From: Patagioenas fasciata
Lineage: Eukaryota; Chordata; Aves; Columbiformes; Columbidae
Direction of reading: 5' to 3'
Length of the DNA: 64,000 bases
NCBI RefSeq assembly: GCF_037038585.1
Contig: NC_092560.1
Span: 83,986,049 to 84,050,048, forward strand
Each line of letters starts with the position of its first letter. Within the stretch, counting starts at the first letter, position 1. This document shows, one piece after another, positions 4,095 through 59,194 of this stretch. A model generated the notes under the pieces. It made no database searches and was not told the origin of the DNA. It worked only from the letters and a program-made list of their open reading frames with translations. The position numbers and the translations under genes are program-made.

Positions 4095-26725
<22,631 letters not shown>

Positions 26726-26956
26726 GGCCGGGGCGGGCGGCGCTAAGCGCGGGGCATGGGGCCGGCAGGCAGCGAGCGGCGCCGCCGGACCGACCGCCGG
26801 ACAGACACACCGACCTTTAGACCCGCCGCCGCCGGCCGGGGCGCGGGGAAGGGAAGGGAGCGGCGCGGCGAAGGGGGCAGGAGGAGGAGGAGGAGGAGGA
26901 GGAGGAAGAACCGCCCCCGCCGCGCCCCGCGCAGGTATGGGGCGGTGCGGCCGGGC

Positions 26957-27305
26957 ACGGCTTGGCTGCGTTCGGCTCCACTCGGCTGGGTTCGGCTCCG
27001 CTCGGCTGGGTTCGGTTCGGCTGAGTTCGGTTCCGCTCGGCTGGGTCCGGTTCAACTCGGCTGAGTTCGGCTCCGTTCGGCTGGGTTCGGTTCCGCTCGG
27101 CTGGGTTCGGTTCGGCTGAGTTCAGTTCGGTTCGGCTGAGTTCGGCTCCGTTCGGCTGGGTTCGGCTCCGCTCGCCACTGATGGGCTCGGTTCGACTCGG
27201 CTCCGCTCGGCTGAGTCGGTTCGGCTCGGCTGAGTTTGGCTCGGCTGAGTTCGGCTCCGCTCGGCTGGGCTCGGTTCCACTCGGCTGAGTTCGGCTCGGT
27301 TCGGC
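26957..27305. repeat. Promoter-proximal CG-containing minisatellite
   Basis: About 350 bp of degenerate 10-16-bp units of the type GGCTGAGTTCGGTTC or GGCTGGGTTCGGCTCCGCTC. Nearly every unit carries at least one CpG. It lies 230-580 bp upstream of the MYO5B start codon, in the short interval between CFAP53 and MYO5B. Frames stay open on both strands because of the repeat, not because it codes. Confidence 0.85.
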
Positions 27306-27310
27306 TGTGC

Positions 27311-31900: not shown

Positions 31901-34900
31901 ATGCCTGGAGCAGAGTAAAGAATTCAGCTCCTTGCTCTCTCAAAGTTACGTCAAGACCCATTTTCAATGGGCAAACAGACTCATCTGCCTTTCATGGCAT
32001 CTCCAAGATGTTTAACATGTGGTTTTGCATATATATCCAGCTCTTCAAGATTTTAAACCTTTTCTTAGTATTAATGAGTTGGAATAAGTTAAATATTGAC
32101 TTTCTTCAGCTCTTACTTTTCTTTTTGTTTTCTCCTCAGGGTCTTCCTGGGGTTCTTGAAGAGCTTTTTCTAAGATCTTCATCTCGAGGGCGAGTTCGCT
32201 TTGTTTTTCCTCATTAAGATGCTGCTTCTTGTCCTCGGCTGCGCTGAGCAACGTGTCCCTGAGTTCTTTCTGTTTCTGTCGCTTCTCCATCTGACGTTGT
32301 TCATTTTCTTGCTTAAGCAGCTTCTGCTGTTCTTCCTACAACGGGAAAAATAACCAGACTGTAAAATCCCACAATGTGAGGGGTTGAAGGGACCTGGAAA
32401 GCTCATCCAGTGCAATCCCCCCATGGAGCAGGAACACCCAGCTGAGGTTCCACAGGAAGGGGTCCAGGTGGGTTTGAATGTCTGCACAGAAGGAGACTCC
32501 ACAACCTCCCTGGGCAGCCTGGGCCAGGCTCTGACACCCTCACCCATTGGAGATCCCCCCAAATACATTGGAGGTCCCCCAACCCATTGCACATCCCCAA
32601 CTTAACCATGGGAGATGCCCTCAAAGCCATTGGAGATCCCCCCAAAACCACTGGAGATACCCTCAACCCACTGGAGATTCTCCCAACCCATTAGAGATTC
32701 CCCCAAACCCGTTGGATATCGCCCATCTCATTGGAGGTCCCGCAACCTATTGGAGATCTCCAAAACCCATTGGAGATCCCCCCCCAAACCCATTGGAAAT
32801 CCCCCAACCCATTGGAGATCCCCCAACACCCTTGGAAATGCCCAAACACATTGGAGATTCCCCAGCCCAACCATGGAAGATCTCCCAACCCAACCATGGG
32901 AGATCCCCCAACCCCTTGGAGATCCTTCCAAACCCGTTAAAGTTCCCCCAAACCATTGGAGATCCCTAATCCATTGGAGATACACAAACCCATTGGAGAA
33001 GCTCCGAGACCCATTGGAGATCCCCCCAACACTTTGGAGATTACTCCAAACCCATTTGAGGTCCTCTCAAACCCACTGGAGATCCCCCAACTCACTGGAG
33101 ATCCCCAAAACCCATTGGAGATCCCCCAACCCATTGCACATCCCCAACTTAACCATGGGAGATGCCCTCAAAGCCATTGGAGATCCCCCCAAAACCACTG
33201 GAGATACCCTCAACCCACTGGAGATTCTCCCAGCCCATTAGAGATTCCCCCAAACCCATTGGATATCACCCATCTCATTGGAGGTCCCGCAACCTATTGG
33301 AGATCTCCAAAACCCATTGGAGATGCCCCCCCAAACCCATTGGAAATCCCCCAACCCATTGGAGATCCCCCAACACCCTTGGAAATGCCCAAACACATTG
33401 GAGATTCCCCAGACCAACCATGGAAGATCTCCCAACCCAACCATGGGAGATCCCCCAACCCCTTGGAGATCCTTCCAAACCCATTAAAGTTCCCCCAAAC
33501 CACTGGAGATTCCTAACCCATTGGAGATACACAAACCCATTGGAGAAGCTCCGAGACCCACTGGAGATCTCCCCAACACTTTGGAGATTACTCCAAACCC
33601 ATTTGAGATCCTCTCAAACCCATTGGAAATCCCCCAACTCACTGGAGATCCCCAAAAACACATTGGAGATCCCCCCAAACACATTGGAGAACCCCCAACT
33701 TAACCATGGGAGATGCCCTCAAAGCCATTGGAGATCCAGTGGTATCCCCAGGGCAGAGCAGAGGGGCAGGAGAACCTCTCTGACCTACTGACCACCCCCT
33801 TCTAACCCACCCCAGGTACCATTGGCCTTCCTGGCCACAAGGGCCCAGTGCTGGCTCATGCTCACCCTGCTGGCCCCAGGACCCCCAGCTCCCTTTCCCC
33901 TACGCTGCTCTCTAATAGCTCATTCCCAACTTATACTGGAACCTGGGGTTGTTCATGCCCAGCTGTAAGACTCCTTGCATAACTTCCAACCAAACGATGG
34001 CTAAAATTAGTTTAACTGTAACATTGAAGAGCAAAGATAAGTAGCAAGATTTTCACTTAATGATAACAGAGCTTCACATATTGCGGATATTCTGCATCTC
34101 TAGCGGACATACATTTATATGAAGTAATTGCATCCTTATATTCTGACGGGCAGTTACTGAATTTCCATTTCCACCTTATATTGGAAAGAACAGGAAAAGC
34201 GACGGTAAAGTTGAGTTCTTAACAAAGAAACAATGAAAAGAGCTAACGGGTATACGTATAATTTAAGATTCTTTAGTCAAAATTAAAAAATAACACTAGC
34301 AAGCACCAGTAAAACCAGCACAACTACAACAAGCCTATACTGGAAAGGGATAGGAACGAAAACAACAGCGTATTGACCACAATGGTTGGGCCAAGCCAGC
34401 CAAACGCTTCCCGTAATGACGCCCAAGAGCAGCCAGGACTAATGGGTGAGAGCGTTTAGGCACTGAATTAGTTAAAAAATAAAATATAAACGGTGTATAT
34501 TCTGAAATTCCATCAGCTGAGGCATAAGCAGTTGGGATTTTGTACATAAATGCGTATCGTGGTCTGAGATCTGGTGTTGTGCGTCCCAGCTGGGACACAA
34601 GGAAATCAGAATCACCTCAGGGCTCAAAATGGCGGTAACAGAATCACCTCAGGGCTCCAAATGGCACCAGAATCACCTCAGGGCTCCAAAAGGCGGCACC
34701 AGAATCACCTCAGGGTTCAAAATGGCACCAAGGGCACCAGAATCACCTCAGGGTTCAAAATGGCGGCACCAGAATCACCTCAGGGTTCAAAATGGCGGCA
34801 CCAGAATCACCTCAGGGTTCAAAATGGCACCAGAATCACCTCAGGGCTCAAAATGGTGGCACCAGAATCACCTCAGGGCTCCAAATGATGGTACCAGAGT

Positions 34901-37900
34901 CACCTCAGGGCTCAAAATGACGGTACCAGAGTCACCTCAGGGCTCCAAATGGTAGCACCAGAATCACCTCAGGGCTCCAAATGGTGGCACCAGAATCACC
35001 TCAGGGCTCCAAATGATGGTACCAGAGTCACCTCAGGGCTCAAAATGGTGGCCCTGGGGGTACCAGAATCACCTTGGGGCTCCAAATGGTGGTACCAGAG
35101 TCACCTCAGGTCTCCAAATGGCGGCACCAGAGTCACCTCAGGGCTCCAAATGGTGGTCAGAAGGATGGCGGGATCACCTCCCAAGAAAGGCCTTGAGGTG
35201 CTGGAGCGAGTGGAGAGAAGGGAACGGAGCTGGGGAAGGGGCTGGAGCACAAGTGTGATGGGAGCGGCTGAGGGACCTGGGGGGTTCAGCTGGAGAACAG
35301 GAGCTGAGGGGAGACAGGGACACAAAGAAACGGCCTCAAGTTGCATTGGGGAAGTTTAAATTGGATATTAGGACACATTTATTCATCTAAAGGGCTGTGG
35401 GGCATTGGAACAGGCTGGAGTCACCATCCCTGGAGGGGTTGAAAAGACACAGAGATGAGGTTCTCAGGGCCATGGGGCAGTGCCAGGGGTGGGTTAATGC
35501 TTGGACTCAATGATCTCGATAGTCTCTTCCAACCAAAACGATTAATAATTCTACGATTCTAAAAGCTTAAAAACACGTTGATTTCCCACAAAAGGCTCCG
35601 AGAGGCTTGAAATGCCCAAATCCTTGACACGCTGAGTTTCAAAAGCCGTATTTCCCTCAGTAAACAGGAGCGCGTTTGCCACAGGAAAGAGGCTTAGCAT
35701 AATAGGACAGTCTCAGATCCTAATGGAATCAGTGAAGACACAAAGAATGTATGGATTAATCTAAATGTTTAGTAAGCCTATCACCAGGAGGGCCTTCTAG
35801 ACATCTCCGAATGGAGAATTATATAGAAATTACCAGCAACTGAGCCTCTTCTTCCTTCAGCCGTTTCTCCTCCTCTTTGCGAGCGCCGAGCGCCGCGACC
35901 TGGGCGCCGAGAACGTTGAGCGTTTCCCGGTGCCGTTGTGCTGATTTCTGCATCTCGGAGGCGTCTCGCTGCTCCTTGGCCAGCCTGTCCTGCTTCCAGA
36001 GCTCGGCGAACATCTGCTCCTCCTCCTGCTGGTGCTTTTTCAGCTCTTCCTTCAGAGCCAACTGGGCCAGCCGGTCGGCGCACACTTCCCGCTGGTGCTT
36101 CTTGGTCAGGTGCACGCGGAGCTCCTCGCATTGTTGGCTGGAAAGGCAAGGGAAAAGGTTGAAGCTGAAATACTAAGGCGCAAAATAACGCATGAGTTAG
36201 GTGGGGTGAGGATGATGGAGGATCCTGGGTCGTATAGATACATAGGAATGGTGCTTGGGATGCCAAATTCTACAGCTGGTGTGGCGCTGGCTCTTTGGGA
36301 GGTGTAGGAAATCAAAGAGAGATTGGAGGGAGATTTGCACCTTGATCTGTTGGGGAGCAGCTCCTGGATCTTCATTTGTAGGAAAAGGAGAAAAGGAGAA
36401 GGAGGGGGGGGAAGGAGGAGGGGAAGGAGGAGGAAGGAGGGGGGGGAAGGAGGAGGAAGGAGGGGGGGGAAGGAGGAGGAAGGAGGGGGGGGAAGGAGGA
36501 GGAAGGAGGGGGGGGAAGGAGGAGGAAGGAGGGGGGGAAGGAGGAGGAAGGAGGGGGGGGAAGGAGGAGGAAGGAGGGGGGGGAAGGAGGAGGAAGGAGG
36601 GGGGGGAAGGCGGAGGAAGGAGGCGGGGGAAGGCGGGGGAAGGAGGAAGAGGGGGGGAAGGAGGAAGAGGGGGGGAAGGAGGAAGAAGGGGGGAAGGAGG
36701 AAGAAGGGGGGGAGGAGGAAGAAGGGGGGGAAGGAGGAAGAAGGGGGGGAAGGAGGAAGAAGGGGGGGAAGGAGGAAGAAGGGGGGGAAGGAGGAAGAAG
36801 GGGGGGAGGAGGAAGAAGGGGGGGAGGAGGAAGAAGGGGGGGAGGAGGAAGAAGGGGGGGAGGAGGAAGAAGGGGGGGAGGAGGAAGAAGGGGGGGGAGG
36901 AGGAAGAAGGGGGGGGAGGAGGATGAAGGGGGGGAAGGAGGAAGAAGAGGGGGAAGGAGGAAGAAGGGGGGAAGGAGGAAGAAGGGGGGGAGGAGGAAGA
37001 AGGGGGGAAGGAGGAAGAAGGGGGGGAAGGAGGAAGAAGGGGGGGAAGGAGGAAGAAGGGGGGGAAGGAGGAAGAAGGGGGGGAAGGAGGAAGAAGGGGG
37101 GGAAGGAGGAAGAAGGGGGGGAAGGAGGAAGAAGGGGGGGAAGGAGGAAGAAGGGGGGGAAGGAGGAAGAAGGGGGGGAAGGAGGAAGAAGGGGGGGAAG
37201 GAGGAAGAAGGGGGGGAAGGAGGAAGAAGGGGGGGAAGGAGGAAGAAGGGGGGGAAGGAGGAAGAAGGGGGGGAAGGAGGAAGAAGGGGGGGAAGGAGGA
37301 AGAAGGGGGGGAAGGAGGAAGAAGGGGGGGAAGGAGGAAGAAGGGGGGGAAGGAGGAAGAAGGGGGGGAAGGAGGAAGAAGGGGGGGAAGGAGGAAGAAG
37401 GGGGGGAAGGAGGAAGAAGGGGGGGAAGGAGGAAGAAGGGGGGGAAGGAGGAAGAAGGGGGGGAAGGAGGAAGAAGGGGGGGAAGGAGGAAGAAGGGGGG
37501 GAAGGAGGAAGAAGGGGGGGAAGGAGGAAGAAGGGGGGGAAGGAGGAAGAAGGGGGGGAAGGAGGAAGAAGGGGGGGAAGGAGGAAGAGGGGGGGAAGGA
37601 GGAAGAAGGGGGGAAGGAGGGAAGGAAGAGGGGGGAAGGAGGGAAGGAAGAAGGGGGGAAGGCGGAAGGGGGGGGAAGGCGGGAAGGAAGAAGGGGGGAA
37701 GGAGGGGGGGAAGGAGGGAAGGAAGAAGGGGGGAAGGAGGGAAGGAAGAAGGGGGGAAGGAGGGAAGGAAGAAGGGGGGAAGGGGGAAAGGAAAAATGGG
37801 GGTGGAGGGGGGGAAAAAGGGGGGTGGAGGGGGGGAAACAGGGGGTGGAGGGGGGGAAACAGGGGGTGGAGGGGGGGAAACAGGGGGTGGAGGGGGGGAA

Positions 37901-40900
37901 ACAGGGGGTGGAGAGGGGGGAAACAGGGGGTGGAGAGGGGGGAAACGGGGGTGGAGAGGGGGGAAACGGGGGTGGAGAGGGGGAAAAAGGGGGGGAGAGG
38001 GGGAAAAAGGGGGGGGAGAGGGGGAAAAAGGGGGGGGAGAGGGGGAAAAAGGGGGGGGAGAGGGGGAAAAGGGGGGGAGAGGGGGAAAAGGGGGGGGAGA
38101 GGGGGAAAAAGGGGGGTGGAGAGGGGGAAAAAGGGGGGTGGAGAGGGGGAAAAAGGGGGGGGAGAGGGGGAAAAAGGGGGGGGAGAGGGGGGAAAGGTAT
38201 AGATGTAGTTGGAACATATGCTGTGTGAGGTTTGCATATATAGGCCTTTCTTTTACATATAAACCACATGCAGAATACGCTCGTTCAAACACGTGGGTTG
38301 TTCTTCATTCAAATAAAGACTTAAAATAAGTCTCCTGGTCACTCGAAAGCTCATTCCCATGGGGAAAATCCTCGGAGAGCGGAAATATAGGTTACGCTGG
38401 TCAATAGGAACCACTAGAATACGCTGTCAAACAATCTTTATTGTGGCCAATATATGAGTATTTTAATTGTTTTATCATCAGGATATCAATGTTCATCAAC
38501 AAGGGTGAAGATCTACAGGTGTGACAGACACAGAGGAATAACAATGGAATGAAATAGAACAAGGGCAAGTGTAGAGTCTTGAATGTGGGCAGGAACAACC
38601 CCAGGTTCCAGTGTAAGTTGGGGAATGAGCTGTTGGAGAGCAGTGTAGGGGAAAGAAACTTCTACTTCTTATACCTTAACACAATGGGTTCAAAGTTCTC
38701 TCAGCAGTGAAGGAATAAACAATTATTCATCCTTTTTTGCGCTTATAAACTAATCTGAATTTAATTGCGTTCTCAGAGGGGGAGAGAGCTTTTATTTAAG
38801 TTCATCGTGGATAGAATAATAGAAAATACTCCTGTAATTGCTTGATCTCATCAAAATAATTCCTTTAAGGCAGCTTTTACGGCAACTTAGAAGCATCTGC
38901 TCCCCCAGATGGTTGGATTTCTTCCTCTCTTGATGTCCTAAGCTTCTTAACATTAAAATTATGTCTGTATTTGCCACTTCCCAAAGACAAAAACCTCATG
39001 TATTTCCCTCATCCCTGGTTATTTCTTCATTTTACGGTCCAAAGTCGCTGCGATAACATTTTCCATATGGATCCTTCTGATGTTATCGCAAAATAGAAGA
39101 GGATGCAATATTAAAGGTACCAATAATGAACATACACAGATTTTTGGTCATGGATCTTCAACAAATATTCATCTCCTGATGAGCAAAATCTCTCCATGGA
39201 CCAAGTTGTTTAAGGATGAAAATAACAAGGGGAAAACAGATTTGGAGCTACTTAAAGATAACAAAATTGTCACCTTTTTGCCCAATCACCTCTTGGTATT
39301 TATTTGGGGTAACACTAAGATATTTTTCTGGTGATACCTGAATTGCTGCTCCCGTTTCTCAGCCACCAGTTGTTGTCTTTCTCTTTCTCTCTTTTCTCTC
39401 AGTATTTTCGCTTGTTCCTTCATTTTGTCGTGTTTCTCCTGTACCGTTTCTTCAAGCGCGTCCATCTCAGCAAAGTATTTGTTTTCCTCTGCTTCCAGAA
39501 GCTCACGAAGCCTGTATTGAAAATATTTAAACAGAAGTTAAAATAATCATTCTGGAGAAGGAGAAAGTTCTAGTTTATTGGTTACAGGCGCAAAATGAAG
39601 GTAACAAGGGAAAGTGCAGAGTGTTACATCTGGGTAGGAACAACCCCAGGTTTCAGTGTAAGTTGGGGAATGAGCTGTTGGAGAGCAGTGAAAAGGGACC
39701 CGGGGGTCCTGGGGCCAGCAGGGTGAGCATGAGCCAGCACTGGGCCCTTGTGGCCAGGAAGGCCAATGGTACCTGGGGTGGGTTAGAAGGGGGTGGTCAG
39801 TAGGTCAGAGAGGTTCTCCTGCCCCTCTGCTCTGCCCTGGGGAGACCACACCTGGAATCTTGTGTCCAGTTGTGGCCCCTCAGCTCCAGAAGGACAGGGA
39901 ACTGCTGGAGAGAGTCCAGCGCAGCCACCAAGATGCTGAAGGGAGTGGAGCATCTCCCGTGTGAGGAAAGGCTGAGGGAGCTGGGGCTCTGGAGCTGGAC
40001 AAGAGGACACTGAGGGGTGACCTCATTCATGGTTACAGATATATAAAGGGAGAGTGTCAGGAGGATGGAGCCAGGCCCTTCTGGGTGACAACCAATGATA
40101 GGACAAGGGGTAATGGGTTCAAACTGGAACACAAGAGGTTCCGCTTAAATATGAGAAGAAACTTCTTGATGGTGAGGGTGGCAGAGCCTGGCCCAGGCTG
40201 CCCAGGGAGGTTGTGGAGTCTCCTTCTCTGCAGACATTCAAACCCGCCTGGACCCCTTCCTGTGGAACCTCAGCTGGGTGTTCCTGCTCCATGGGGGGAT
40301 TGCACTGGATGAGCTTTCCAGGTCCCTTCCAAACCCTGACATTCTGGGATTCTGGGATTCTGTGAAAACGAGCACATCACTCCTTCCAACATTGTCCAAG
40401 GGAACATCAAATTTTAACTCAGGGATCACTGCAAAATCCCCTCTGATGACAGAAAAGTCCCGTCCTGGCATGGATTAAGCTCTTCATCTTGCAAACCCAA
40501 ACCGTACTAGTTACTGTGTTTAAATAACTATCTCTAGCGATTGGCTCAGCGAGTAGTAGCCCAATTAACTAATGTTTATTCTACATCACTGCTTCACCAA
40601 CACGCCTACAGTTATGATGAATAATTAATATTATGCCCCAACACACTGTGTAACAAGGTGCTGAGCTCTACTGAGTGTTTTTCCCACCATCACTTCTCCA
40701 AGAGCAAAGTTAAATTGAAAATATTAAGGGAGATATTGGTTTTAGCTACGCGGTTGGTACCTCTCTCTCCTCTCATCAGCTCCAGGTAGATATTCCCGCA
40801 TGGCCGCGTCCACCTTTCTCTGCAGGGCGCTGCGCAGCCATTTCTGCTCATTGTGTTTCTGCCACTCGTTGACGTGGCGATACTGGGCGTAGAGCTTTAA

Positions 40901-42310
40901 GAGATTGGCATATTCAAGTTCTTTTTCTTCCCGTCTTTGGGCGGAGGCAAAGTTTTCAATGGTTTGCTCTTTAGGAGGCCTGGCTCTCTGTAAGAGAAAG
41001 CATTGGCAGGGGTGAAAATATAATCTGTGTTTTGGTTTGGATGAATTCATGATGAAATAAGGTGAGGCCGCACCTCAAATCCTGGGTCAGTTTTAGGGCC
41101 CTCCCAAGAAAGGCCTTGAGGTGCTGGAGCGAGTGGAGAGAAGGGAATGGAGCTGGAGCACAAGTGTGATGGGAGCGGCTGAGGGACCTGGGGGGTTCAG
41201 CTGGAGAACGGGAGCTGAGGGGAGACAGGGACACAAAGAAACGGCCTCAAGTTGCACCAGGGGAGGTTGAGGTTGGATCTGGGGAACAATTTCGTGCTCG
41301 CTGTATTAGAGAAACGCGCATGTGTAGAAAAACCAATGTTCCACTGGGCCCCAGGGCATCCACCCATGCAGTTTTGAATCTTTTTTAAAAAAGATAAACC
41401 AAGACTCATCTTTGAATCCCATATGGGATGTTGGGAAATCTGTAGGATGGTCTCATCCAGCATTGAAGAGCTGAAAATCTTCCAAGTGTTGGGGGGGACA
41501 CATGAGGCCAAATCTCAAATCCTGGGGGCAGTTTTGGGCTCCTCACCTCAGGGCTCCAAATGGTGGCACCAGAATCACCTCAGGGCTCAAAATGGCGGCA
41601 ACAGAATCACCTCATGGTTCAAAATGGTGGCACCAGAATCACCTCAGGGCTCCAAATGGTGGCAACAGAATCACCTCATGGTTCAAAATGGTGGGCAGAG
41701 GGGTGGCGGGATCACCTCCCAAGAAAGGCCTTGAGGTGTTGGAGTGAGTAGAGAGAAGGGAACGGAGCTGGGGAAGGGGCTGGAGCACAAGTGTGATGGG
41801 AGCGGCTGAGGGACCTGGGGGGTTCAGCTGGAGAACAGGAGCTGAGGAGAAACAGGGACACAAAGAAACGGCTATGACTTCTATCTCATCCTCTTCATCC
41901 AAGAGAGCGTTTATGGTGTGTTTTACACCTGCCCAACAAGCATTCCCACCACAGGTACCCTCCAGCCAGCTCCACAACCTCTCTGGACAGCCTGCTCCAA
42001 GGCTCTGGCACCTCAAAGGAAAGAAGTTCCCCGTTATATTCAGATGGACCCTCCTGTTCTTCAGTCTGTGCCCGTTGCCCCTCATCCCGTCACTGGGCAC
42101 CACTGAATCTGCTCCATCCCCTTCTCCCCCTCCCCAGGCCTCAGCCTCCCCCGGGAACCCCGCGTCGCTCCCCGCCCCTCTCACAGGGCCCAGCCCCAAC
42201 CGGCATGGGGCTGGAGCGCCCCCCAAGGACCCGCTCACCAGCGCCGTGGAGTGCGGGAAGGGCCTGGGCACCTCCCGGCACCGCGGCCGCTGCCGGCGCC
42301 GCGCGTCCAT
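28670..42310 (-). CDS. CFAP53: CFAP53 (CCDC11), complete, 8 coding exons
   Basis: Cilia- and flagella-associated protein 53, a coiled-coil protein of the trichohyalin/plectin-homology type. In other vertebrates it sits at ciliary bases and inside axonemal doublet microtubules and is needed for left-right axis formation. Exons: 42239-42310, 40761-40987, 39338-39511, 35834-36137, 32117-32335, 31520-31736, 29731-29833, 28670-28907. They join without frame conflict into 517 codons plus stop, close to the human length of about 514. Diagnostic stretches include [54 protein letters not shown] and a C-terminal IHPLRRK. Acidic and basic residues alternate almost throughout, as expected for a long helix. 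In human, CFAP53 also lies just upstream of MYO5B in the same orientation. Introns 3 and 4 each contain a large minisatellite. Confidence 0.95.
29731..29833 (-). CDS. CFAP53: CFAP53 coding exon 7
   Basis: 103 bp with a TTCAG acceptor and a GTAGTT donor. It encodes [18 protein letters not shown] and IEEEKYV. Phases match exons 6 and 8. Confidence 0.93.
30320..31262 (+). mobile_element. CR1 LINE with part of the reverse-transcriptase ORF
   Basis: Sense copy of the main subfamily in CFAP53 intron 6. Its left part translates to reverse-transcriptase-like residues ([19 protein letters not shown], then [11 protein letters not shown]). It jumps at about 30570 to GATTAGAGAGCAGTGTAGGG, so about 200 bp are missing inside. 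Terminus CATTCTGGGATTCTGTGAT. Confidence 0.9.
31520..31736 (-). CDS. CFAP53: CFAP53 coding exon 6
   Basis: 217 bp with a CGCAG acceptor and a GTGAGT donor, ending in phase 1. It encodes [32 protein letters not shown] and TRQLQVEEK, matching the TPH region of human CFAP53 closely. The acceptor has a weak pyrimidine tract, so its exact position is a little less certain. Confidence 0.93.
32117..32335 (-). CDS. CFAP53: CFAP53 coding exon 5
   Basis: 219 bp, phase 0 at both ends, with a TGTAG acceptor and a GTAAGA donor. It encodes [15 protein letters not shown] and later [16 protein letters not shown], corresponding to the HENEQ and LVQRALQDLQEE stretches of human CFAP53. A CR1 copy starts 30 bp upstream of the acceptor. 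Confidence 0.93.
32366..32545 (-). mobile_element. CR1 LINE, 3' part, interrupted by a minisatellite
   Basis: Antisense main-subfamily CR1 from its 3' end (CACAATGTGAGGGGTTGAAG) to GGCTCTGACACCCTCACC, where the minisatellite of 32546-33739 begins. The matching remainder lies at 33740-33975. It is in CFAP53 intron 4. Confidence 0.88.
32546..33739. repeat. CATTGGAGATCCCCC minisatellite inside a CR1
   Basis: Units of about 18-19 bp (CCATTGGAGATCCCCCAAAC and variants with CACTGG, CCTTGG, CTCATTGG), with interspersed CTTAACCATGGGAGATGCCC units. The block is organised in 547-bp higher-order copies: the CTTAACCATGG marker recurs at 32601, 33148 and 33699. It replaces about 300 bp of internal CR1 sequence. 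Open frames rich in P, N, L, E and W are repeat by-products. Confidence 0.93.
33740..33975 (-). mobile_element. CR1 LINE, 5' part of the interrupted copy
   Basis: Resumes the same CR1 in the same orientation at TCCCCAGGGCAGAGCAGAGG and runs to TGGAACCTGGGGTTGTTCAT. It contains the TACGCTGCTCTCTAATAGCT variant seen in other copies. Confidence 0.88.
33976..34605. other. CFAP53 intron 4, no recognised feature
   Basis: A+T-rich unique intronic sequence between the interrupted CR1 and the next repeat array. Confidence 0.4.
34606..35566 (+). repeat. CR1 with internal minisatellite (locus B)
   Basis: An array of about 17 units of AGAATCACCTCAGGGCTC type fills about 34606-35155. It passes straight into sense CR1 sequence: TCCCAAGAAAGGCCTTGAGG, then GGCCTCAAGTTGCATTGGGG, and a CR1 terminus of the AATTCTACGATTCT type at about 35565. 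No CR1 sequence was recognised left of the array. It lies in CFAP53 intron 4. Confidence 0.87.
35834..36137 (-). CDS. CFAP53: CFAP53 coding exon 4
   Basis: 304 bp with a TCCAG acceptor and a GTAATT donor, ending in phase 0. It encodes [33 protein letters not shown] and LKEEEAQLL. It forms the central coiled coil. Confidence 0.95.
36396..38198. repeat. Purine-rich minisatellite, about 1.8 kb, in CFAP53 intron 3
   Basis: The core is a very regular 19-bp unit AAGGAGGAAGAAGGGGGGG at about 36930-37600. It is flanked by variant blocks: AAGGAGGAAGGAGGGGGG at about 36400-36640, 24-bp units with GGAAGGAAG at about 37600-37790, and GTGGAGGGGGGAAACAG or GAGAGGGGGAAAAA units at about 37795-38195. The plus strand is all purine over long tracts, so the CFAP53 pre-mRNA is pyrimidine here. 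It starts about 260 bp upstream of the exon 4 acceptor. Confidence 0.95.
38199..38544. other. CFAP53 intron 3, no recognised feature
   Basis: Unique intronic sequence between the purine array and a short CR1 fragment. Confidence 0.4.
38545..38654 (+). mobile_element. CR1 fragment
   Basis: 110 bp of sense main-subfamily CR1 from GGAATGAAATAGAACAAGGG to GAGAGCAGTGTAGGGGAAAG, truncated at both ends. Its right edge is the same CR1 position at which the copy at 3208 begins. Confidence 0.85.
39338..39511 (-). CDS. CFAP53: CFAP53 coding exon 3
   Basis: 174 bp with a TACAG acceptor and a GTATCA donor. It encodes [19 protein letters not shown], then [16 protein letters not shown], among the most conserved parts of the protein. 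The intron on its 3' side holds the 1.8-kb purine array. Confidence 0.95.
39607..40363 (+). mobile_element. CR1 LINE, 5'-truncated copy
   Basis: Sense main-subfamily copy in CFAP53 intron 2, ending in a CATTCTGGGATTCTGGGATT type terminus. Confidence 0.9.
40761..40987 (-). CDS. CFAP53: CFAP53 coding exon 2
   Basis: 227 bp with a TACAG acceptor and a GTACCA donor, ending in phase 2. It starts RARPPKEQ and ends ADERRER. The spacing of tryptophan, histidine and the ERR motif follows human CFAP53. This is the start of the coiled-coil region. Confidence 0.92.
41056..41296 (+). mobile_element. CR1 fragment without the internal repeat (locus C)
   Basis: Sense CR1 in CFAP53 intron 1. It reads GTGAGGCCGCACCTCAAATC, then CAGTTTTAGGGCCCTCCCAA directly joined to GAAAGGCCTTGAGGTGCTGG. 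At exactly this junction the copies at 41.5 kb and, in antisense, 43.0 kb contain AGAATCACCTCAGGGCTC units. This copy has none. Confidence 0.85.
41490..41880 (+). repeat. CR1 with short internal minisatellite (locus D)
   Basis: Sense CR1: CTCAAATCCTGGGGGCAGTT, then CTCCTCACCTCA, then about 4-5 repeat units at 41545-41700, then TCCCAAGAAAGGCCTTGAGG and further CR1 to about 41880. It lies about 200 bp right of the repeat-free copy C and may be a duplicate of it. Confidence 0.85.
41955..42125 (-). mobile_element. CR1 fragment, diverged
   Basis: Antisense CR1-like sequence: AGCTCCACAACCTCTCTGGA, then AGTCTGTGCCCGTTGCCCCT and CATCCCGTCACTGGGCACC. It is more diverged than the main copies and sits about 110 bp from CFAP53 exon 1. 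Confidence 0.65.
42239..42310 (-). CDS. CFAP53: CFAP53 coding exon 1
   Basis: 24 codons from an ATG in strong context (GCCATGG) to a GTGAGC donor, phase 0: [20 protein letters not shown] and four more residues. It aligns with the basic human N-terminus through the spaced pattern REV..P.P, continued by RPPK in exon 2. An upstream in-frame TTG was not used because the ATG fits better. Confidence 0.82.
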
Positions 42311-42336
42311 GGCCGGGGAGGCGGGACGCGTCGCCC

Positions 42337-42350
42337 GTTGCCGTGGCAAA
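42337..42350. promoter_or_regulatory. RFX-type X-box upstream of CFAP53
   Basis: GTTGCCGTGGCAAA is one or two bases from the palindromic X-box GTTGCCATGGCAAC bound by RFX factors, which drive ciliary genes. It lies 27 bp upstream of the CFAP53 start codon in a CpG-rich stretch (about 42180-42430). An ETS-like CCGGAAGTG follows at 42359-42367. Confidence 0.6.
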
Positions 42351-42454
42351 GCGCCGCGCCGGAAGTGGCGTCATGACGCTGGGCGCGCAGCCGCGGGCGG
42401 GCTAAGGGAGGAGGTGTGGCTGTCATGGCGGCCGAGGGGGCGTAGGTTGGGGAG

Positions 42455-43210
42455 ACACAGAACCATGCAGAGCCTCAGGATCTTCGAATCCAAGCATTAA
42501 TCCACCCCTGGCACTACCCCATGTCCCTGAGAACCTCATCTGTGTATTTTCAACCCCTCCAGGGATGGTGACTCCAGCACTGCCCTGGGCAGCCTGTTCC
42601 AATGCCCCATAGCCCTTTAGATGAATAAATGTGTCCTAATATCCAATTTAAACTTCCCCAATGCAACTTGAGGCCGTTTCTTTGTGTCCCTGTCTCCCCT
42701 CAGCTCCTGTTCTCCAGCTGATCCCCCAGGTCCCTCAGCCGCTCCCATCACACTTGTGCTCCAGCCCCTTCCCCAGCTCCATTCCCTTCTCTCCACTCAC
42801 TCCAGCACCTCAAGGCCTTTCTTGGGAGGTGATCCCACCACCCTTCTGACCACCATCTGGAGCCCTGAGGTGATTCTGGTGCCGCCATTTGGAGCCCTGA
42901 GGTGATTCTGGGTGCTGCCATTTTGAGCCCTGAGGTGATTCTGGTCCCACCATTTGGAACCCTGAGGTGATTCTGGTGCCGCCATTTGGAACCCTGAGGT
43001 GATTCTGGTGCCATTTGGAGCCCTGAGGTGATTCTGGTGCCACAATTTTGCGCTCCCAAAACCGCCCCCAGGACTGGCGGTTTGGCCTCCCCAGGTCCCA
43101 GCACAGGGACGGTCGCTGCCCTGGGCCTGCTGGCCACACCAGTGCTGGTACCAGCCAGGATGCTGGTGGCCTTTTGGGCCACCTGGTCCTCCAAGTGTGA
43201 CACATCACAC
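42455..43210 (-). repeat. CR1 with internal minisatellite, antisense (locus E)
   Basis: Antisense CR1. Its 3' part lies at about 42455-42830 (CCCCTCCAGGGATGGTGACT, then TCCAGCACCTCAAGGCCTTT), the repeat units at about 42840-43055, and 5' CR1 sequence at about 43056-43210 (GGCCACCTGGTCCTCCAAGT). Relative to CR1 sense the repeats have the same orientation as at loci A, B and D. The element starts about 145 bp upstream of the CFAP53 start codon. Confidence 0.87.
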
Positions 43211-57759: not shown

Positions 57760-58970
57760 TAAAACACAAACATCACATTTTTCGCTTCCCGGTGATAAAA
57801 TAGAGGACAATTTATGACCTTCTCGCTAAGTTTTTGATGTACATGAAGCTGAAAGAATGGGTGTTGACTTGGGAAAGTTCCTTGTGTTTGGCCCTCGAAA
57901 CATGCAGAAGGAAAACCTTTTGAATTCAATCTATATTCAATATGTTCATATATTGTTTGTAAGCGTGGGGAGTTAGAATATGTTTTCTCTATATCTGATG
58001 GTATTTCTGTTTGATTTTTCTTTCTCCTTCTGGTCTTATGTTGTAATTCAGTTTACCACAGAGGTGGTCAGCGCAAAACAACCTTATTTAAAGTCTAGAA
58101 CCGTATATTTGAGTTGGTTTTTAAAAGCACTTAGCAAATGTGAAGCAACGCCAGGCTAGGAGGGGACGCGTGTTATTATTTGACGTTAAAAATTGCTCAT
58201 GAAGCAGCGCTTTTGATTTCTTTTCCTTTTATTGATGCTTTAATAGTTTGGTCAACAGGCTGTGTCTCTTCATTTAACGTACAAGTTGCAAAGGTTATTG
58301 GGAAGATGAGAATCACAGGACACGTTGGTTCATGTGGTTGTGTAGATGGGATGGCTGGAGGGCTCAATTCTGCCATCCCTACTCCTTTCACCTCTTTTCA
58401 CCCCTAAAAATATAAAGACGACGCATTTTTGTACCGAGGAATTGCAATAATTTGCTGGCTGGTGGAGTCACGCGATTCCTTGTTTGTTCTTTTAATTTCT
58501 CCTCGAAATTCTGATGAAAGTCACTTCTTGGATGGCCTTCTTGGTTCTTCTTTAACACATTTGTGTGTTAATCTGTTTCTCAGTTCTTTTAGGGGTTTTG
58601 GGGTTGGTTTTAGGGTTGGGGAAGGAGGGAATTACGAGCTATTCACTGTTAGGGAATTGTGGAAAAACAGCAGAGTTTTGCTTATATTTTTATTTGGAGA
58701 GATAAGCAGTCAATCCTTAACAGTAAAAATTTATATTTTTAGTTAATTAGGGGAAAAAAAAGGAGTTTAGGGTAAGGTAGGCTGTTTATTTATACTTCCC
58801 CCCCCAGAGTAAAAAGCAATGGGTTATGACGATGTTCTATAAATGTACCATTATGAGTATGTATATGTTGAAAAGCGACTTAATTTTTATAGAGGGCTTT
58901 TGTCTTTTACTGAATGTGGAAATAAACTGAATTTATATGGATAATTAATAAAAGCTATGAGGTGTTTTGT
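57760..58970 (+). other. Presumed 3' UTR of the tetraspanin gene
   Basis: A+T-rich sequence without coding potential. AATAAA signals at 58921-58926 and 58947-58952 suggest cleavage shortly after, giving a 3' UTR of about 1.2 kb. A diverged copy of the signal lies at 59117-59122 in the second half of the duplication. Confidence 0.5.
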
Positions 58971-59194
58971 GTGGGGAGGAGCTGTGCAGGGCGATCCCCC
59001 CCAGAGTAAAAAGCAATGGGTGATGATAATGTTCTATAGATGCACCATTATAAGTATGTACATGTTGAAAAACGACTTAATTTTTAGGTAGGGCTTTGTC
59101 TTTTATTGAATGCTGTAATAAAGTGAATTTCTATGGGTAATTAATACAAGCTGTGAGGTGTTTTGTGTGGGGAGGAGCCGTGCGGGGCGGTCCC
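58801..59194. repeat. 197-bp tandem duplication between the tetraspanin and SKA1
   Basis: Two head-to-tail copies, 58801-58997 and 58998-59194, offset by exactly 197 bp at CAGAGTAAAAAGCAATGGGT and roughly 85-90% alike by eye. Each contains an AATAAA signal and the stretch GAGGTGTTTTGTGTGGGGAG. The first copy covers the likely tetraspanin polyadenylation site. The second runs into the SKA1 CpG-rich promoter. Confidence 0.9.

Follow-up and report, generated by a model that had tools for sequence, protein, structure and literature searches.

A CR1 lineage with an internal 32-bp minisatellite at four loci within 64 kb of a bird genome

The window analysed here, a 64-kb stretch of the Patagioenas fasciata genome, contained two exons of CFAP53 on the minus strand (35836-36139 and 39334-39513), which were identified by PDB sequence match, and a GC-rich stretch at 42160-42440 that may be a candidate first exon of the same gene. 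A young type-N lineage of CR1, a non-LTR retrotransposon common in birds, occupied 13 places between 3210 and 63999 at high density, with 93-99% match to the consensus of nine copies. Eleven TRF arrays covered 10.6 of the 64 kb. In addition to the loci described below, large tandem arrays were located at 6517-8703, 12528-14404, 26954-27307, and 36393-38195, two of which were purine- and G-rich, and a 196-bp tandem duplication with two copies at 88% was found at 58799-59194. Scans of the 64-kb window against Rfam, at the gathering threshold, and for tRNAs returned no matches.

A scan of both strands of the whole window with a 20-base repeat core, allowing up to four mismatches, revealed matches confined to four clusters, with 50 at locus A (+), 17 at locus B (+), 5 at locus D (+), and 6 at locus E (-). 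The identical four arrays were recovered by the TRF tandem-repeat scan. Cutting the arrays at the ATCACCTC motif gave the same numbers of whole units (A 50, B 17, D 5, and E 6; 78 in total), which were mostly 32 bp long, with other forms of 29, 33, 38, 41, and 42 bp. Unit numbers had been expected to run from about 4-5 to more than 50; the range from 5 to 50 was confirmed by counting, but locus A contained 50 units and not more. The array of locus A (607-2422, +) included six near-identical five-unit blocks of 178 bp and was followed by a short CR1 flank (2423-2467, +) interrupted by an internal deletion, with a possible CR1-like remnant extending to ~2496 as judged by eye. At locus B, the array (34612-35180, +) was followed by the 3' part of CR1 (35181-35559, +), which reached a degenerate CR1 terminal repeat, ATTCTACGATTCT. 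Locus D consisted of a CR1 segment 5' of the array (41486-41542, +, start by eye), the array itself (41543-41718, +), and a 3'-truncated CR1 segment (41719-41872, +). On the minus strand, locus E contained CR1 5' of the array (43057-43186), an array in which a damaged first unit was followed by six whole ones (42826-43056), and the 3' part of CR1, with damage close to the terminus (42456-42825, end by eye). Locus C (41061-41297, +, end by eye) was an array-free, 3'-truncated CR1 of the same lineage. Loci C and D were located on the 5' side of the CFAP53 exons and locus B on the 3' side; should the first exon lie in the GC-rich stretch, locus E would also be 5' of the gene.

The CR1 word AAGAAAGGCCTTGAGGTGCTGG was found 3' of each array, at 2428 (A), 35183 (B), 41721 (D, with one mismatch), and 42802 on the minus strand (E), as well as at 41106 in the array-free locus C. 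These four clusters with their common junction word, and flank E-values down to 3e-158, far beyond chance, agreed with the original prediction that four arrays of a roughly 32-bp unit adjoin CR1 at one common place. The predicted junction 3' of the array was present at all four array loci, with three extra bases at A, where ~40 bp of CR1 was kept in addition to the possible remnant. CR1 also preceded the array at D and E, as had been proposed: the array of D was flanked by CAGTTTTGGGCTCC on one side and CCAAGAAAGGCC on the other, and at E, the damaged first unit was preceded by a 132-bp CR1 segment with a 71% match to another CR1 in the window. No CR1 match was found in the DNA adjoining the 5' side of the arrays at A and B. 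Such one-sided edges would be expected of an independent satellite into which CR1s had inserted at one preferred motif; however, consecutive CR1 sequence lay on both sides of the array at D and E. When the array of D was removed at the TCACCTC motif that bracketed it, taking out 169 bp, the collapsed sequence aligned with the window CR1 copies K1/K2 straight through the junction, with a 2-nt gap there. The alignment with locus C had gaps of 6 nt at the junction and of 12 nt farther on. This near-continuous CR1 at locus D contradicted a pre-existing satellite hit by CR1s, an explanation that we consider extremely improbable. Because collapsed D aligned through the junction with K1/K2, the array is an insertion into CR1. 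The insertion cost CR1 little or no sequence and lies in the ORF2 region, with the QFWAP codons on one side and the KKGLEVLE codons on the other.

The junction of locus C read GGGC-CCTCCCAAG. As we read the alignment, it could have arisen by the loss of 6 bp from a copy without an array or, likewise in one step, by the loss of those bases together with the array. The expected CR1 junction with no array was present at C, but its use as the ancestral state failed: locus C is uninformative in this respect because a single deletion yields its junction from either starting state.

The flanking CR1 sequences of B, C, and E differed mutually at only 2-3 of 148-160 sites, and D differed from them at 9-11 sites, some of which lay past the truncation of D. 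Across the longer 3' segment, 15 of 358 sites differed between B and E. The flanks of the array lineage differed from K1/K2 at 55-58 of 143-156 sites, and two single-base gaps were common to B, C, D, and E. The C-terminal coding region of CR1 ORF2 was recognized in the reading frame of K1/K2, which was open across 150 nt and with which the array flanks aligned; we take the open peptide to be that of CR1 ORF2. The corresponding peptide in B, D, and E hopped frames. Because these frame shifts were common to its copies, the array lineage looks non-autonomous and seems unable to make the ORF2 protein. The elements were named CR1 because of the ORF2 peptide and the terminal octamer TTCTGTGA. An octamer repeat of this sequence at the CR1 3' end is described in PMC2612034. 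It was seen in 6 of the 11 printed type-N CR1 ends of the window. In the array lineage, the 3' terminus was degenerate yet recognizable at B and damaged at E, and A, C, and D were without it.

The arrays shared a distinctive end. At all four array loci, the last unit was a 41-bp form with CAGARGGRTGG, a form seen in none of the 74 internal units, and the final TCACCTC motifs were located at 2416 (A), 35174 (B), 41712 (D), and 42832 on the minus strand (E). The terminal units were 4-7 edits apart from each other and 7-10 edits from the nearest internal unit. Sharing extended to other units: B had one 29-bp unit identical to a unit of E and one 32-bp unit identical to a unit of A. The TCCAAATGG type made up 8 of the 17 units of B, 2 of the 5 of D, and 5 of the 6 of E but none of the 50 of A; units of the GGTTC type also recurred at several loci. 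The recurrence of the 29-bp, 32-bp, and TCCAAATGG-type units across loci suggests that the arrays trace to a single ancestral array that already contained several types of unit. The units of A stood apart, with a mean distance of 6.8-7.6 edits from the others, compared with 3.7-4.6 among B, D, and E, and A was the most removed of the four arrays.

Conserved internal unit order was not found, with order no better than shuffled in all six locus pairs. Of 74 units, 54.1 had their nearest neighbour within their own locus, compared with a mean of 35.8 and a maximum of 46.9 in 1000 shuffles; this count was weighted heavily by the repeated 178-bp block of A, to whose array TRF fitted 9.9 looser periods of 178 bp. 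Only the terminal unit was in register, so a short array with later remodelling fits better than a long travelling array; the arrays were probably remodelled locally after the inheritance of an array that was itself probably short. The lack of a conserved unit order, the strong similarity of units within their own locus, and the separation of A would also be expected if the lineage had carried a mere seed, consisting of two motifs and the terminal variant, from which each array was born in place by slippage with no VNTR having travelled. Both the unit order and the separation of A weigh against our preferred explanation. Minisatellites were also held by an unrelated CR1 and by several other sites in the window (11 arrays, ~10.6 of 64 kb), and this regional abundance lends some weight to separate births. 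However, the 29-mer and the TCCAAATGG-type and GGTTC-type units recurred across loci, and a two-motif seed supplies none of these, although recurrent change could. We regard separate births from a seed as unlikely, while granting them a serious hearing, and prefer the inheritance of a short array of several unit types.

The unrelated CR1 was a type-N copy at 32365-33973 on the minus strand. It contained a different minisatellite of ~20-bp units and 1196 bp, which replaced consensus positions 251-571 (321 positions), and its unit ends resembled CR1 at both edges by eye. Because this unrelated copy holds a different minisatellite, arrays arose inside CR1s at least twice. A derivation of the 32-bp unit from another stretch of CR1 was analysed under two scorings, with two queries against four targets. 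Against the upstream CR1 of E, the unit dimer reached a score of 13, and against that of K2 a score of 15, values reached by ~1 in 300 base shuffles; in the background, 12 of 902 window-strands scored at least 13 and four at least 15, two of these four being K copies. With mixed scores and a background that reached the same values, this derivation was not relied on. Searches of the unit and the flank in viral contigs, a collection not expected to contain this genome, gave 0 and 0 matches. The unit matched eight stretches once each in bacterial and archaeal genomes, likewise not expected to contain this genome, and these matches are due to chance, since ~30 were expected for random sequence by a hand estimate.

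The four arrays belonged to one lineage, with one insertion point and one common terminal unit, in separate surroundings. In flanks of 245-1150 bp, the DNA beyond the element matched solely other CR1 copies. A single segmental duplication was not supported because, within these 245-1150 bp, no common DNA other than CR1 copies was present beyond the element, and the reading of the copies as a spreading element survived this check. The proposal that the repeat arose once inside a CR1 and then spread with it was supported by the same junction and terminal unit at four of four loci in separate places, but this support did not extend to the travel of a long array, and retroposition enters only as the likeliest means of spread. 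Five copies were located within 64 kb, three of them within 2.2 kb, and with such clustering local copying may have taken part. Copying by local DNA-level duplication or gene conversion, which overlaps the preferred explanation and differs from it in means only, would account for this clustering and for the absence of 3' ends in three of the five copies. Loci A, C, and D lacked the CR1 3' end expected from target-primed reverse transcription, which counts against retroposition; 3'-end loss, however, occurs in type-N CR1s too, since only 7 of the 11 printed 3' ends kept ATTCTGTG, and their 5' ends were variable. Against local copying, the 245-1150 bp flanks had nothing but other CR1 copies in common, A and B started within the array, as expected after 5' truncation, and B retained a degenerate CR1 terminus. 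Spread by local copying instead of retroposition is accordingly given a low probability, and retroposition is kept as the likeliest means.

These results are best explained, with good though incomplete confidence, by a defective CR1 that gained a minisatellite, the dispersal of copies with a short array, and the subsequent remodelling of each array at the DNA level. The proposed order of events would be as follows. A defective CR1 lineage would have acquired the minisatellite in ORF2, between the QFWAP and KKGLEVLE codons. The 7-bp CR1 motif TCACCTC brackets the array and also recurs within its units; for this reason, slippage between two of these motifs, accompanied by filler sequence, probably gave rise to the array by duplication. 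CR1 copies with a short array and the distinctive last unit would then have been dispersed, with CR1 reverse transcriptase in trans as the likeliest agent, and the positions at which A and B begin point to 5' truncation inside the array at these two loci. Finally, DNA-level remodelling at each locus would have produced arrays of 5 to 50 units and the 178-bp higher-order block of A.

The units contained CAAAATGGCGGC, whose complement includes GCCAT. This core was present in 38 of the 78 units (A 25/50, B 8/17, D 1/5, and E 4/6), and AA[AG]ATGGCGGC occurred 20 times in the window and never outside the arrays. The monomers of mouse L1 Tf are ~200 bp long. They are likewise tandem units with the YY1 core GCCAT in a LINE, but they are located at the 5' promoter, whereas the array here is internal and its putative sites were recognized by sequence (PMC11602158). 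The putative YY1 motif serves as a lead only, as it was spotted post hoc and amounts to repetition of a single motif. It is a doubtful extension of these findings, to which we attach little probability, that the arrays represent a genome-wide family of VNTRs mobilized by CR1, a bird counterpart of SVA/LAVA, which would spread YY1-type sites acting on its own transcription or on genes nearby, such as CFAP53.

Mobile elements with central VNTRs are already known. SVA and gibbon LAVA are VNTR composite retrotransposons, described as specific to hominoid primates (PMC4432496). The lineage described here resembles them in being apparently non-autonomous and in having, at several loci, a central VNTR whose unit number varies (four loci, 5-50 units, and a common terminal unit), and the SVA/LAVA units are of similar size at 30-50 bp (PMC4432496). 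SVA/LAVA, however, are composites of several elements mobilized by L1 in primates, whereas here a single CR1, which at D flanks the array in near-continuous register, was interrupted by an array, and its mobilization is inferred. According to the same source, conservation of LAVA VNTR units is confined to the 5' and 3' ends, and changes in the VNTR are ascribed to microhomology-driven events at the DNA level (PMC4432496). In our arrays, only the 3' terminal unit was comparable, as A and B were cut and E was damaged at the 5' end. DINE-TR1 elements also have tandem repeats in the middle of the element but are Drosophila Helitrons (PMC6947457). The chicken HinfI (SCR1) satellite is a bird tandem repeat that is likewise associated with sequence from CR1 ORF2; there, CR1 lies within the repeated unit, whereas here the repeat lies within CR1 (PMC9659126, PMC6947457). 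Minisatellites born in retroelements include Ms6-hm in MaLR and Alu-derived cases, for which an origin between short direct repeats was proposed; these are described as minisatellite origins, whereas the present case is a lineage in which four loci have the array at one common point (PMC6947457). No CR1 with an internal VNTR was found in the titles and abstract starts among the matches listed, which is no proof of absence, and among these matches the CR1 carrier appears new.

A CR1 lineage with a VNTR would be a case independent of SVA/LAVA and based on a different LINE. Such a case lets one ask how tandem repeats arise in a mobile element, survive reverse transcription, and are remodelled there. 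For bird genomes, which are described as low in repeats (PMC4992247), such a lineage would in addition provide mobile minisatellites.
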